From NCBI RefSeq assembly GCF_002886185.1, contig NZ_KZ614147.1, positions 323,974-387,973 of the forward strand: a stretch of 64,000 nucleotides of DNA, in the 5' to 3' direction. The notes beneath the pieces were generated by a model. The model did no database searches. It worked only from the letters and a program-made list of their open reading frames with translations, and was not told where the DNA came from. Origin of the DNA: Salipaludibacillus neizhouensis. GTDB taxonomy: Bacteria > Bacillota > Bacilli > Bacillales > Salisediminibacteriaceae. The position numbers and the translations under genes are program-made. This document shows, one piece after another, positions 1-62,509 of this stretch (positions within the stretch are counted from its first letter, which is position 1; each line of letters opens with the position of its first letter).

Positions 1-684
1 CGCGCTTTCGCTGCGGCTCCGCCTTTTCAGCTTAACCTTGCATGGGATCGTAACTCGCCGGTTCATTCTACAAAAGGCACGCTGTCACCCATTAACGGGC
101 TCCAACTACTTGTAGGCACACGGTTTCAAGATCTATTTCACTCCCCTTCCGGGGTGCTTTTCACCTTTCCCTCACGGTACTGGTTCACTATCGGTCACTA
201 GGTAGTATTTAGCCTTGGGAGATGGTCCTCCCAGTTTCCAACGGGGTTTCACGTGTCCCGCCGTACTCAGGATACACTCCGGAGGAGTCTGCATTTCGAC
301 TACAGGGCTTTTACCTTGTCTCGCGGACCTTTCCAGGTCGCTTCATCTACACAGACTCTTTGTAACTCCATATGGAATGTCCTACAACCCCAAGAGGCAA
401 GCCTCTTGGTTTGGGCTGTTTCCGTTTCGCTCGCCGCTACTCAGGAAATCGCATTTGCTTTCTCTTCCTCTGGGTACTAAGATGTTTCAGTTCCCCAGGT
501 CTGCCTTCTCACACTCTATGTATTCAAGTGTGGATCTTATCCCATTACGGATAAGGGGTTCCCCCATTCGGAAATCTCCGGATCAAAGCTTACTTACAGC
601 TCCCCGAAGCATATCGGTGTTCGTCCCGTCCTTCTTCGGCTCCTAGTGCCAAGGCATTCACCGTGCGCCCTTTCTAACTTAACC
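1..684 (-). rRNA. rrl: 23S ribosomal RNA, 5' part (cut by window edge)
   Basis: The minus strand carries the first ~680 nt of a 23S rRNA. The conserved 5' end (GGTTAAGTTAGAAAGGGCGC) falls at about 684 and the gene runs off the window at position 1. The sequence matches the complete copy at 59880-60563 except for one base at position 2. It belongs to the rRNA operon whose 16S gene lies at 1059-2630. The rest of the 23S and any 5S lie outside the window. Confidence 0.97.
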
Positions 685-1058
685 ATTTTTTGCGTTTGAC
701 TGCACATGACCTTTGAATGTCTTTGTCAGCTGCACTCTTCATCATCCTCACGTACCTAAGTACGTTCCGGTGACTCATCGCTTGCTTCCGCGAACTTCCA
801 GGTCCTGCTTGCCAATACCTCCGAAGAGGTTCACAATTGGTGGCGTCTTTCTTAGCCTACATCTAAGACACTCGGTTCACTTTCTTTGAACGTATTCAAA
901 GGGTATAACCGGTGATTCTTTTCAGTCATTTCGTTATCCAGTTTTCAAAGGACAAAGGCTTCTTTCAAAGAAAAGAAGCTTTGAGAGACTAACCTCTCAA
1001 AACTAAACAAAAAGTCCAAGACAAAGTTCGATTCAATAAGTTGAGCTTAAATGCTCCT
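685..1058 (-). other. 16S-23S spacer without tRNA genes
   Basis: This ~374-nt spacer matches the one at 60564-60937. I find no cloverleaf or CCA-ending tRNA in it, so this is a tRNA-less spacer. Positions 998-1014 complement the 16S leader at 2762-2777 over 16 nt, which is the expected stem for release of pre-16S RNA. Positions 932-945 match the 23S 5' processing arm seen in the second operon. Confidence 0.85.
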
Positions 1059-2630
<1,572 letters not shown>

Positions 2631-13404: not shown

Positions 13405-13574
13405 CATAAGAAAAACGCCTAGTGTCTTTTATTAAATACAGCGTGATCTTTAAAGCCACCCCCGAGTAGCATCTACGTATTGCGTGGTGTAGGTGCTACT
13501 CGAAAGGAAGCGAACTTCCCTTAATACGTGTGGCGTAAAGATAGCTGTCACTTATACGTTCTTGCAAAAAAAGA
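13405..13574. repeat. Dispersed palindromic intergenic element, copy A
   Basis: About 170 bp between ftsH and coaX. It aligns nearly end to end with copy B at 56661-56828. Outer arms ACAGC-GTG-ATCTTTAAAGCCAC (13438-13459) and GTGGCGTAAAGATAGCTGT (13530-13548) pair imperfectly. The inner arms CGAGTAGCA (13463-13471) and TGCTACTCG (13494-13502) pair perfectly, and a further small hairpin GGAAG-CGAA-CTTCC lies at 13506-13519. Its right edge runs into the A-tract that encodes the ftsH terminator T-run. No protein is encoded. It looks like a MITE/REP-type or structured-RNA repeat; I cannot assign a known family. Confidence 0.8.
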
Positions 13575-13615
13575 GGGTGACTCAAAAGGTCGTTTATGAC
13601 CTTTTGAGGCATCCC
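13566..13615 (-). terminator. ftsH terminator
   Basis: Minus-strand stem GGGATGCCTCAAAAGGTC / GACCTTTTGAGTCACCC (one bulged region) followed by TCTTTTTTT. The T-run forms the right edge of repeat copy A. Confidence 0.9.
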
Positions 13616-20754: not shown

Positions 20755-20817
20755 ATCCTCACGCTCCTAATCTTGTTTTACTAATAGTTTTCACAAGATT
20801 AAGAGGACTTATACTTG

Positions 20818-20890
20818 AGAAAAACGGCATAGCCGTCTTTTATTTAATACAGCGTGATCTTTAGCCACCCCGAGTAGCACCTATTAGTTG
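20818..20890. repeat. Dispersed palindromic element, half copy C
   Basis: Matches the left half of copies A and B: A-rich start, small hairpin ACGGC-ATA-GCCGT (20825-20837), TTTTATTTAATACAGCGTGA, the CTTTAGCCAC arm and CGAGTAGCACCT (20871-20882). The right half is missing, and the sequence passes directly into the spoIIE stop codon at 20896. On the minus strand the small hairpin followed by TTTTTCTC can serve as the spoIIE terminator. Confidence 0.72.
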
Positions 20891-20895
20891 CTAAG

Positions 20896-23358
20896 CTAAG
20901 CCAATGACGATATTGTCGCCCATTTTGGTGAATAATGGTCTACTCTTACTACTAAAACTGTCATATCATCATGAATATCTCCATCCGACTCTCTTATAAT
21001 TTGCTCAATCAGTAAGTCAGAAATCTCCTGAGGGTCATTTGTCTGCAAATCCCTTATGATCCGCTTCATCAACATATCAGTGTTTTCAACTCTAGTGGGG
21101 GCTTCATAAATTCCGTCGCTCATCATAATAAGCAAATCCCCTGCCTTTAGTTGTTCCGACACAACATCGACGTCAACATCTTTTATCATACCAATTGGTA
21201 AATTACTCGATTCAATAGAAAGTATTTGACTGCCCCTTTTGATAAAACTAGGAGGTGATCCGACTTTCAAAAACTTTGCCGAACCCTCTTGCAAATCAAT
21301 GACCGCTAAATCCAGGGTTGCAAACATTTCTTCATTGGACCTTAGAGATAGCACCGAGTTAATCGACTTAATTGCTACCTTCTCAGCAATTCCAGATTGA
21401 AGAATCCTTTTTAAAAGACCGATTGTTTCTTCACTTTCCAGATGAGCTCTTTTACCATTTCCCATCCCATCACTAATCGCCATGGCATATTTCCCATCAC
21501 CTAATGGCATTGTTGAAAAACTATCCCCCGATATCCATTTGCCTCCTTTAGCTGTGTGCGCGGCACCTTGTTCAAGAATAAACGCATTCGTCGAACCGAA
21601 AATTACCCTCGTTTCACCATTTGGACTTCGAAGATCTTCTTCGTGCTTTAAAACGATAGATTCGTTTAATATCGTAGAGAGCAAAGGAGCAATAACCTTT
21701 TCTGCCTCATTATATTTATTCGAAGGAATAACCATTTCCAAGTCCACATTACCCGGATCCAGTCCATAGATTTCAACTAGATCGACATCTATTCCAAGTT
21801 TCAGTAAAGATTCTTTCACTTCCTCCTCTTGTTTATCATGTACTTCTTTCTCTCTTTGAATATCCCTTGCAAAATCCCCCATCACTTGAGAGACACCTAT
21901 TAACTGATCGGCGACTAGCTTTCTGCTTTCTTCTAATTGTCTTTTTAATCGGACCTCTACTTCACGGTTTTTTAATTGCTCTTCAATCGTTGATATAACC
22001 TTTCGATCGATAAAACAGTGATTTTTCCAATTAGTCAGTAATGTTTGATCCTTTATCTCTCCTTCTGTATTGCAAGCTTCCATTAAAGACTCCATATACC
22101 CATACGTTTTTTGAAAATCCTTCGTCCAACATTGCTTCTTTTTTACACATATTTGACATGTCTTTTCAGTCACTCCACTAAGGAAAATATCGACTTCTTT
22201 TTGTGATTCAATTGGTTCATTCATTTTTTCTGTAAAAGAAAAGCTCTTCGACAGACTTAGGAACAACTCCGAGAATTGTTCTACTTTTCCCGCTGTCAGA
22301 TCTCTTATTTTCCTTAGATACAACTGTTGTTCCTGGGCGTGCTCCACAGTACCTGGTATGTAGCTGGCCAGACGATTCGTCCACGACTTTGGGGTGAGGA
22401 AAAACAAGGAAACTGCAAGGAGACTCTCATAAAGAGTCACTTGTAAAGGTGCTTGATTATCCGTGTACATAGCCATTAGTAAACTTGCGACAACTAGGCC
22501 GCCAGCAACGGATATCTTTCTCCCTTCTCTCAGCAAACCTCCCAATAAACCAGCAAATGCTAGAAGACTCATAGAAAATAAGTGAGTAATGTTTGCTAAA
22601 GAAAGGATCAACCCCATAATGACTCCTGTAGTTGCTCCAATCGTGGCTCCCCCGATAAACGCAAATATTAGTACAATATATTGAGCAAATATATGCTCAA
22701 TGGAAAGGTCATAAATCATCCACCCTACTGTCCCAGTTAACAAAGAGCCGAGCAAAATAACTAAACAAACGACTTCCTCAGGCTTTAATGTAACTTGTCT
22801 TCTTCTTTCTAGGAAAAATGGGATGCTTTGCATAAAAATCAACGTAATAATTAGGGCTAATCCCCCTTCAACCAGCGCTGTTAACAAATGATAATAGAGA
22901 AATCCATCTGTGAATGTCAATCCTAATACACGAGTAATAACGACCGAGGTAAAAACAGCGATAGGAAAAAACTTTTCTTTCTTATCAAACCGTTGCAAAA
23001 TTGCCTGTAAAATGAAATAGAAAAGAACAGCGACCGTTGTGTGCCCGGCGTAAGTGAACGATAATGTGGTTGACCCGGCAATTAAAGCAAACGCTGCCGG
23101 TAAACTCCAACTCCTTTTCCACTTAAAAACAACGGCTAAGAACGGAATGGTAAAGGGAAGCAGTTGCAGTAAGATCACAGCTCGTCCAAGTAAAAAACCA
23201 ACTGCTATGATGAGCATTAAACCTCGCCATTTTGAATACGCAGCCTTTGTTGACGTTACTTTTGGCGATAAAAACGTCGATCTTAACGTACTTACAGAAG
23301 TAACAGCTTGTCCACTCATATTTGTTTCCACCTTCCTATCGATCATTTTCTCCACCAC
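20896..23358 (-). CDS. spoIIE: Stage II sporulation protein E (SpoIIE phosphatase)
   Basis: Dephosphorylates SpoIIAA, releasing SigF in the forespore, and helps place the polar septum with FtsZ. The 820-residue protein has ~10 N-terminal membrane segments (about 50-330) and a central regulatory/oligomerisation region. The C-terminal PP2C phosphatase shows GDSFSTMPLGDGKYAMAISDGMGNG-type metal motifs and DDMTVLVVRV. B. subtilis SpoIIE is of the same size. The promoter at 23380-23412 has the unusual 21-nt spacing known for spoIIE. Confidence 0.97.
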   Translation of the reverse strand: MVEKMIDRKVETNMSGQAVTSVSTLRSTFLSPKVTSTKAAYSKWRGLMLIIAVGFLLGRAVILLQLLPFTIPFLAVVFKWKRSWSLPAAFALIAGSTTLSFTYAGHTTVAVLFYFILQAILQRFDKKEKFFPIAVFTSVVITRVLGLTFTDGFLYYHLLTALVEGGLALIITLIFMQSIPFFLERRRQVTLKPEEVVCLVILLGSLLTGTVGWMIYDLSIEHIFAQYIVLIFAFIGGATIGATTGVIMGLILSLANITHLFSMSLLAFAGLLGGLLREGRKISVAGGLVVASLLMAMYTDNQAPLQVTLYESLLAVSLFFLTPKSWTNRLASYIPGTVEHAQEQQLYLRKIRDLTAGKVEQFSELFLSLSKSFSFTEKMNEPIESQKEVDIFLSGVTEKTCQICVKKKQCWTKDFQKTYGYMESLMEACNTEGEIKDQTLLTNWKNHCFIDRKVISTIEEQLKNREVEVRLKRQLEESRKLVADQLIGVSQVMGDFARDIQREKEVHDKQEEEVKESLLKLGIDVDLVEIYGLDPGNVDLEMVIPSNKYNEAEKVIAPLLSTILNESIVLKHEEDLRSPNGETRVIFGSTNAFILEQGAAHTAKGGKWISGDSFSTMPLGDGKYAMAISDGMGNGKRAHLESEETIGLLKRILQSGIAEKVAIKSINSVLSLRSNEEMFATLDLAVIDLQEGSAKFLKVGSPPSFIKRGSQILSIESSNLPIGMIKDVDVDVVSEQLKAGDLLIMMSDGIYEAPTRVENTDMLMKRIIRDLQTNDPQEISDLLIEQIIRESDGDIHDDMTVLVVRVDHYSPKWATISSLA

Positions 23359-56660: not shown

Positions 56661-56828
56661 CATAAGATAAACGCAAAGCGCCTTTTGTTTAATGCAGCGT
56701 GAGCTTTTGCCACGTCCTTTCGAGTAGCACCTCTGTAGTTGCATGTAGGTGCTACTTGAAAGGATGTGGATTTCCCTTGATATGTGTGGCGTAAAGGCAG
56801 CTGTCACCTTATACTTTCTCATAAAAAA
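56661..56828. repeat. Dispersed palindromic intergenic element, copy B
   Basis: Full copy between csfB and yaaO, collinear with copy A. Outer arms GCAGCGTGAGCTTTTGCCAC (56694-56713) and GTGGCGTAAAGGCAGCTGT (56786-56804); perfect inner core AGTAGCACCT (56723-56732) / AGGTGCTACT (56747-56756). A small hairpin CGC-AAA-GCG lies near the left end. The right edge merges with the csfB terminator T-tract. Comparison with copy A shows substitutions spread throughout, with paired arms retained. Nothing else is visible in 56300-56660. Confidence 0.8.
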
Positions 56829-56849
56829 AGAAGGTTCAACTTTGAACCT
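56822..56849 (-). terminator. csfB terminator
   Basis: Minus-strand AGGTTCA-AAGT-TGAACCT stem (56832-56849), overlapping the csfB stop codon, followed by TCTTTTTTTATG. The T-run is shared with the edge of repeat copy B. Confidence 0.82.
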
Positions 56850-57063
56850 CCCCATTCCCCTCTTGACGCAGTCTATCCCGGATCTTACCCAATCGGTTTA
56901 CAATAAGAGAATAACTCTGATCCTCTACATTCATCTGAACCATCTTTCTTTCACATTCTTCGCATATAAATGATCCAATTACATGAATTCCTCTTTCTTT
57001 AGCTGAGTAACATATCAAGCAGTCATTCAACTGCACATCTTCTTTTTTTAATAAATGACTCAT
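56836..57063 (-). CDS. csfB: Anti-SigG factor CsfB (Gin)
   Basis: A 75-residue zinc-binding protein. The two CxxC pairs CLICYSAKERGIHVIGSFIC and EECERK fit Gin, which in B. subtilis inhibits SigG (and SigE) until engulfment is complete. I favour the ATG at 57063 (MSHLLKKEDVQLND), 11 nt after GGAGG; an ATG 14 codons earlier is possible. Lies between the 5S gene and yaaO, as expected for bacilli lacking xpaC-yaaN. Confidence 0.87.
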   Translation of the reverse strand: MSHLLKKEDVQLNDCLICYSAKERGIHVIGSFICEECERKMVQMNVEDQSYSLIVNRLGKIRDRLRQEGNGEVQS

Positions 57064-57430: not shown

Positions 57431-57546
<116 letters not shown>

Positions 57547-57571
57547 CATAGTGAGTGGTCGTTGACCTCTC

Positions 57572-57606
57572 AAAACTGGATAACGTGATGGACTGAAAAG
57601 AATCGT
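57572..57606 (-). other. 23S processing stem, 3' arm
   Basis: The 23S-5S spacer on this strand complements the 23S 5' flank at 60790-60824 over about 35 nt with few mismatches, including the perfect AAAACTGGATAACG (57572-57585) with 60811-60824. This is the stem expected to be cut during release of pre-23S RNA. Confidence 0.8.
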
Positions 57607-57622
57607 TGCTTAGAGTAAAACA

Positions 57623-60563
<2,941 letters not shown>

Positions 60564-60937
60564 ATTTTTTGCGTTTGACTGCACATGACCTTTGAATGTC
60601 TTTGTCAGCTGCACTCTTCATCATCCTCACGTACCTAAGTACGTTCCGGTGACTCATCGCTTGCTTCCGCGAACTTCCAGGTCCTGCTTGCCAATACCTC
60701 CGAAGAGGTTCACAATTGGTGGCGTCTTTCTTAGCCTACATCTAAGACACTCGGTTCACTTTCTTTGAACGTATTCAAAGGGTATAACCGGTGATTCTTT
60801 TCAGTCATTTCGTTATCCAGTTTTCAAAGGACAAAGGCTTCTTTCAAAGAAAAGAAGCTTTGAGAGACTAACCTCTCAAAACTAAACAAAAAGTCCAAGA
60901 CAAAGTTCGATTCAATAAGTTGAGCTTAAATGCTCCT
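60564..60937 (-). other. 16S-23S spacer without tRNA genes
   Basis: Matches the spacer at 685-1058. It lacks tRNA-Ile and tRNA-Ala. It contains the 23S processing arm (60790-60824) and the 16S arm (near 60877-60893), pairing with the leader near 62642-62657. Confidence 0.85.

Positions 60938-62509
<1,572 letters not shown>

Follow-up and report, generated by a model that had tools for sequence, protein, structure and literature searches.

The palindromic element in the window

The window, meaning the whole 64-kb stretch of DNA analysed here, contains one palindromic element in two intergenic copies (A and B) and one half copy, all summarised in Table 1. Copy A follows the terminator of the ftsH-like gene, and copy B follows that of the small csfB-like gene. 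The names of the neighbouring genes (ftsH-, coaX-, csfB/gin-, spoIIE- and VWA-domain-like) come from a by-eye reading of their translations. Ribosomal RNA genes are located at both ends of the window (57431-62508 and 1-2629, minus strand).

Table 1. Coordinates of the element copies, their parts and the adjoining host terminators in the window
Feature	Coordinates	Strand	Remarks
Copy A	13407..13565	minus	Between ftsH-like and coaX-like genes; cmsearch 167.5 bits
Copy A, 5' leader (ragged end in the family)	13550..13565	minus	39-copy alignment and 85-copy junction table
Copy A, outer helix P1, 5' strand	13530..13549	minus	Consensus fold, cmsearch alignment; P1 covaries in the wider family
Copy A, inner palindromic hairpin, CGAGTAGCA arms	13463..13501	no strand	Feature of the long type
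Copy A, outer helix P1, 3' strand	13439..13459	minus	Consensus fold, cmsearch alignment
Copy A, 3' terminator-like hairpin and T tail	13407..13426	minus	Imperfect; consensus terminator scan negative
Host intrinsic terminator (hairpin and T7) directly upstream of A	13566..13615	minus	Terminator score 40.2
Copy B, divergent subtype	56663..56822	minus	Downstream of small csfB/gin-like gene; cmsearch 143.4 bits
Host intrinsic terminator directly upstream of B	56823..56853	minus	Score 27.8; consensus scan flags 56853-56828
Half copy, 5'-truncated	20816..20891	minus	Between spoIIE-like gene and VWA-domain-like gene

Within the window, blastn aligned copies A and B over 180 columns with 77% identity (E 1e-31), and copy A with the half copy (20811-20883) with 86% identity. 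Only these copies rose above noise with R1, a covariance model built from 39 genomic copies. With filters off, cmsearch placed copy A at 13407-13567 (E 8.5e-35), copy B at 56663-56824 and the half copy at 20816-20959 (40.6 bits), all on the minus strand. The first two bases of the copy A match belong to a host T-run, and in the half copy the element is confined to approximately 20816-20891. Other matches in the window scored 16 bits at most (E at least 0.45) and represent the inner palindrome on the opposite strand, or noise. In the half copy, the whole part 5' of the inner hairpin is missing, and a by-eye comparison of the corresponding place in seven congeners revealed no element there. The preliminary description had presented A and B as related intergenic copies alignable over nearly their full length, and both searches agree with it; the outer arms and the inner arm pair around CGAGTAGCA are likewise present as it described them. 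The short hairpin that it had seen to differ in sequence between copies was confirmed; in the minus-strand reading it turns out to be the terminator-like hairpin at the element's 3' end.

The host terminator upstream of copy A was not flagged by the stricter consensus terminator scan. Copies A and B both have imperfect 3' hairpins, neither of which the consensus scan flagged as a terminator; a consensus scan for sigma-70 promoters found none in or beside either copy. Short ORFs listed across A and B are taken as chance, and no shared reading frame is expected because the genomic copies differ by insertions and deletions of 1-2 bases.

Fold, covariation and distribution of the family

On the sense strand, which is the minus strand in the window, the element consists of a long hairpin with a conserved asymmetric internal loop and a conserved terminal loop. 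The leader (consensus AGATAAGAATTTATAAG) is followed by the long outer helix P1. The internal loop carries a GCG or similar triplet on its 5' side and a UUUAAA-ACAUG or similar stretch on its 3' side, and hairpin P2 is closed by loops such as GAAACCCA or GAAAAGCA. The 3' terminator-like hairpin, with its T tail ending in TTTTTCTTA, has a helix that is 93.7% paired in the wider family (alignment A4, below). An additional inner palindrome characterises the long type of the host genome (G000), which includes copy A. The complementarity of the ends is limited to the short TAAGAA/TTCTTA. In another host copy (L009:1335-1505) the inner hairpin module is duplicated in tandem, which suggests growth by hairpin duplication.

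Nine genomes, two of them with weak matches, carry this fold in largely different sequence. Alignment A3 comprised 16 sequences from four genomes, aligned without structure and omitting L106, L165 and L212 of A2, and its consensus structure was derived from the alignment itself. In A3, 90.2% of the cells pair and 16 of the 36 pairs have two-sided changes, with 51 compensatory cells vs at most 16 in slid-partner controls. Among 500 shuffles, the cell count and the score were never reached and the pair count was reached once, while the number of further pair types was reached in 136. Alignment A4 (41 rows, 37 distinct) was fitted to the model; it keeps near-identical tandem copies and two probably spurious rows, L267:1475-1527 and L270:1610-1717 (E 0.013 and 0.04). 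Here 34 of 36 pairs showed two-sided changes, with 294 compensatory cells vs at most 61 in controls, a count that leans towards the model. In the first 36 of the 41 rows of A4, G-U and U-G cells numbered 81 on the sense strand vs 25 for A-C and C-A, a surplus that fits a single strand of that sense. The long host type taken alone covaries only slightly (two-sided changes in 2 of 26 pairs). The compensatory changes support one fold, as would be expected of a structured RNA element, and the recurrence of that fold in largely different letters across genera points to an undescribed family of mobile RNA elements.

The host genome (5.5 Mb, 11 contigs) yielded 44 or 45 blast matches per search, of which the best 40 candidates were scored. 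R1 detected at least 85 copies of the long type. The second covariance model, R2, gave at least 98 matches, and 89 of its listed places are absent from the 85 of R1, so that the two listings together cover at least 174 distinct places. These 89 further places mostly hold a shorter type of about 130 nt; the length of the element ranges from about 130 to 160 bases. An 18-base left-end motif, with up to two mismatches allowed, had 197 occurrences in G000, 124 in G018 and one in G020, whereas the reversed motif was found 0, 1 and 0 times. Median pairwise identity was 0.83 among the 85 long host copies and 0.86 among 24 copies of G018, indicating that the bursts are not fresh.

Blast, R1 and R2 did not find the element in seven other species of the genus. 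Across the family, R2 located it in 6 of 35 genomes: G000, G018 (at least 97 matches) and G023 (80 matches) with many copies, and G008, G020 and G029 with two matches each. A stricter scan of 397 genomes of the order, limited to the best candidates per genome, found it in at least five, including three new carriers from other families: G075 and G084, each with 7 matches among the best 8 candidates scored, and G371 with one. Two carriers score weakly, G008 with a best E of 0.0016 and G371 with E 0.0031; by eye their sequences have the same layout. R1, applied to the best seven candidates per genome across the order, matched in its own genome only. The carriers are thus sporadic, and some of them hold bursts. 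No match was obtained among plasmid records with one G084 and one G000 copy as queries, among phage records with one G018 copy, or among viral contigs with one element pattern. Two exact patterns, which fit the G000/G018 type only, likewise had no match among named genome contigs, a collection that may not include the host genome. Tandem arrangements were also observed: G023 has an array of about 5.5 copies with a 145-bp unit (L169:2964-3770), and similar array-like groups occur at L283 (four copies about 157 bp apart) and on the minus strand of L266 (three copies 227 bp apart).

The preliminary description had named a covariance-model search of the whole genome, a covariation check and a comparison with Rfam as ways to follow up the repeat. 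The search uncovered well over 100 copies in the host and related elements in other genomes of the order, and covariation proved strong in the wider family when pair counts were set against slid and shuffled controls. It had remarked that the repeat fits no family it could name; in Rfam 15 gathering scans of the window and nine loci no family reached threshold on the element. A scan of seven loci at E up to 5 gave matches below threshold, several of them on the long 3' hairpins of L242, L247 and L266. An rsmX match over 90 bases of the L092 copy (22.1 bits vs 56, E 2.2) was taken as chance. An epsC RNA (L248:1142-1252 in G029, 102 bits) was identified about 250 bases upstream of an element match.

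Insertion site, ends and strand bias

The neighbourhood of the copies was scored for intrinsic terminators on the sense strand, using a simple score of at least 20 within 75 nt upstream. Such a terminator was found upstream of 41 of the 85 host copies vs 15 of 489 control stretches from the same flanks; the remaining 44 copies have no score-20 terminator upstream. Terminators were scored downstream of 4 copies and upstream on the antisense strand of 29, the latter being expected if many hairpins have an A-run on their other side. The short host type gave 7 of 11 vs 3 of 176 (11 copies fetched of 89 places), and G018 gave 15 of 24 vs 4 of 221 (24 fetched of at least 97 copies). For G084 and G075 the figures were 5 of 7 vs 3 of 112 and 4 of 6 vs 3 of 96, favoured by an upstream stretch about 50 nt longer than in the controls; the G075 locus L281, a short match, was omitted from the terminator and identity counts. 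In 33 copies behind terminators scoring at least 24, P1 begins 21-37 nt (median 29) past the terminator stem, which would place the start of a full leader near the point of transcript release. The left flank also resembles the element's own tail, with a 7-of-9 match in 50 of 85 copies vs 28 of 303 control windows.

The two ends of the element behave differently. Of 85 copies, 63 have precisely TTTTTCTTA as their 3' tail, but no more than 41 start with AG[AGT]TAAGAA at the 5' end, the remainder entering host T-runs at varying points. No fixed upstream tetranucleotide was present, as base counts showed only a T-run with ragged left junctions. Target-site duplication was not detected (mean longest match 4.68 vs 4.77, sd 0.11, in permuted pairs), with a slight excess in a fixed-boundary test (0.84 vs 0.62 bases, sd 0.11). 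Copying of the tail from the target was rejected, since tail and target showed no correlation in all 85 copies (8.25 vs 8.20, sd 0.09) or in the 22 deviating ones (8.32 vs 8.27, sd 0.19). The right tail does not follow the left target, which leaves a priming step in which the tail anneals to the target T-run unsupported.

A bias in orientation was observed relative to replication. On C1, the largest contig of the host genome, 52 of 60 long copies fit a pattern of plus orientation up to 1.8 Mb and minus orientation beyond. The same breakpoint, applied to the short copies, accommodates 50 of 54 (binomial p 0.0009 against an assumed 75% baseline). The plus-strand GC skew of the C1 flanks is +0.074 before 1.8 Mb and -0.068 after. 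On C2, 12 of 14 and 21 of 25 copies follow an arrangement of opposite sign around 0.48 Mb, again in agreement with the GC skew; on C3 a bias is not clearly evident, with 6 of 9 copies plus in each of the two sets. In G018, two arcs with fitted breakpoints accommodate 90 of the 97 chromosomal places listed out of 124, and the GC skew flips there too. The sense strand is the G-rich one and hence points in the direction of fork movement, which puts it on the lagging-strand template. Under a crude ORF rule, 30 of 41 copies share their strand with the nearest upstream ORF, and gene direction thus accounts for part of the bias, perhaps not for all of it. New relative to the preliminary description are the placement behind terminators, the bias in replication strand, the contrast between a ragged 5' and a mostly exact 3' end, and the 5' truncation of the half copy.

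Mode of movement and comparison with known systems

With about 160 bp the element has no room for a reverse transcriptase or maturase gene, and none was found in it, only short ORFs. Group II ribozyme domains (Intron_gpII, D1-D4) were not detected in the window or on the scanned elements, while the same Rfam library detected group II introns at L171, L172, L176 and L191. No larger element with the same ends was present among the matches listed or the loci fetched, and the neighbouring ORFs of the low-copy carriers appeared ordinary by eye, with no evident autonomous partner. Reverse transcriptase genes occur in 8 of 9 carriers and also in 16 of 29 non-carriers of the family, while G018, with its 124 left-end motifs, has no PF00078 reverse transcriptase; co-occurrence is therefore non-discriminating and was rejected as proof of mechanism. 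An association with RAYT genes was rejected as well: at 12 Y1/RAYT loci in G000, G018 and G023, some with broken genes, none is flanked by the element, the single one nearby lying about 1.6 kb from a RAYT gene. Y1_Tnp matches are found in 26 of 35 genomes, including G000, G018, G020 and G023, in carriers and non-carriers alike.

Two further observations concern reverse transcriptases in these genomes. About six such genes, two of them matched in two pieces, are clustered at 21-52 kb of contig C2 of G084 (L287, L290, L292 and L294), and G019 has 32 reverse transcriptase matches and no element found.

At a probability of roughly one half, we consider the element to be a non-autonomous mobile structured non-coding RNA that inserts behind intrinsic terminators and moves through RNA. 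The dispersed and sporadic copies, the covarying fold, the terminator site, the lagging-strand-template sense and the pattern of the ends can all be read from the DNA itself. The 3' end lies where the element's own terminator would free an RNA; together with the covarying fold and a 5' end that is ragged or truncated, this favours copying of RNA by an enzyme acting in trans. The element would be transcribed by read-through or from a flanking promoter, and its RNA would end at its own terminator, with the end of the sense transcript predicted at TTTTTCTT. A ribonucleoprotein may then copy this RNA into DNA at the replication fork, where the target would be a host terminator hairpin exposed on the lagging-strand template. 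Reverse transcription would start at the exact 3' end and leave the second junction, at the 5' end, loose. In this it would resemble a group IIC intron that does not splice, or a bacterial equivalent of a SINE, and would depend on an enzyme provided in trans. In G018 the copies are old, so the reverse transcriptase may have been lost there. The preliminary description had offered selection on structure or a mobile palindrome as alternatives; both are supported, as a structured RNA that is mobile.

Movement through RNA is the most likely route, and its main rival, which we regard as unlikely, is that an HUH transposase (Y1/IS200-IS605 or RAYT-like) acts in trans on a DNA element and mobilises it in single-stranded form. 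The fold would then be that of lagging-strand template DNA, and the strand bias would reflect excision and insertion there. An orientation bias towards the replication fork is expected of IS200/IS605 HUH transposition, and the bias on C1, in agreement with GC skew, is of this kind; the palindromic fold, the short complementarity of the ends and the Y1_Tnp matches in 26 of 35 genomes, with G000, G018, G020 and G023 among them, are also consistent with it. IS200/IS605 elements, however, have a fixed target tetranucleotide at an exact left end, whereas here ragged junctions enter a T-run and a 5'-truncated copy exists. The Y1/RAYT loci, with one match about 1.6 kb off and no flanking element, and the presence of Y1 genes regardless of carriage also argue against an HUH enzyme. 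Both the conservation of a terminator-like tail and the surplus of G-U pairs are more in keeping with RNA. Even so, sequence features do not allow a full distinction between an RNA intermediate and one of single-stranded DNA.

An RNA useful to the host, such as a back-up terminator against read-through, a protector of mRNA 3' ends or a small RNA, with mobility as an incidental property, would accord with copies located behind terminators and with conserved loops that suggest a binding partner. This is improbable, given well over 100 copies in a single species and none found in seven congeners, few carriers (6 of 35 genomes in the family, at least 5 of 397 in the order), an element-free half-copy place in those congeners and 44 of 85 copies that lack a score-20 terminator upstream. 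Among the candidates listed in the preliminary description, the structured RNA stood, while REP/RAYT and the classic MITE failed on testable features. Size, copy number and short terminal complementarity resemble those of a MITE, i.e. the remnant of a DNA transposon with terminal inverted repeats moved by a cut-and-paste transposase. Yet target-site duplication is lacking save for the slight fixed-boundary excess, the inner stems covary while the 5' end is ragged, and no larger same-ended element appeared among the matches listed or fetched, which makes a MITE very improbable. Slightly less credible still is distant kinship with bcr1-bcr3, repeats known from the Bacillus cereus group. The element resembles them in size, copy number and dispersal, but by their description in the available parts of the sources these repeats have TTTAT-linked mobility, and the first bcr are restricted to that group (PMC3446304, PMC6542083).

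The element may, more tentatively, belong to a so far undescribed, order-wide superfamily of mobile non-coding RNAs that retrotranspose in trans, a bacterial SINE in effect. A self-terminated transcript would be copied by reverse transcription at sites behind the hairpins of host terminators, into the template of the lagging strand; exact 3' ends and ragged or truncated 5' ends would result, and the conserved internal and terminal loops would form the putative binding site of the trans enzyme. Dispersed bacterial repeats are usually explained by DNA transposases, whereas the signs here resemble small-RNA retrotransposition. Even with a single-stranded DNA intermediate, this is a mobile RNA-like family that Rfam lacks; in one species it follows many genes at their 3' ends, and a covariance model that recognises it is now described.

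No comparable element was described in the open-licence literature searched, a search that was not exhaustive. Group IIC introns, according to the available part of the source (PMC4424553), are mobile structured RNAs that insert behind intrinsic terminators and have a link to the replication fork. The element shares the terminator-adjacent insertion, the fork link and a structured RNA as the mobile unit, but has no detected group II domains, reverse transcriptase gene or sign of splicing, and with about 130-160 nt it ends in its own terminator-like 3' hairpin. The nearest described repeats met, compared by description only, are bcr1-bcr3. The available parts of the sources portray these as MITE-like, non-coding and dispersed, with a length of 100-400 bp and mobility around a TTTAT motif, and state that roughly half of the bcr copies as a whole are transcribed (PMC3446304, PMC6542083). 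By that description they are similar to the element in size, copy number and dispersal, and differ from it in their TTTAT recombination and their confinement to one species group, as opposed to a terminator target and several families. REP units measure 20-40 bp and are tagged GTAG or CGTC in the accessible portion of the source (PMC3733652). REP/BIME systems with RAYT share intergenic palindromes in many copies with the element, which differs in its length of about 130-160 bp and in flanking no RAYT gene at the 12 loci.

SINEs are short non-coding RNAs with a fixed 3' and a variable 5' end that use a foreign enzyme. The element resembles eukaryotic SINEs in these ends and in its apparent dependence on a foreign enzyme, an analogy that implies no homology, and differs from them in having no target-site duplication and a terminator hairpin as its target. 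If the element does move through RNA, it would offer a parallel to SINEs in bacteria and show that terminators can serve as landing sites for a non-coding RNA that is not an intron.
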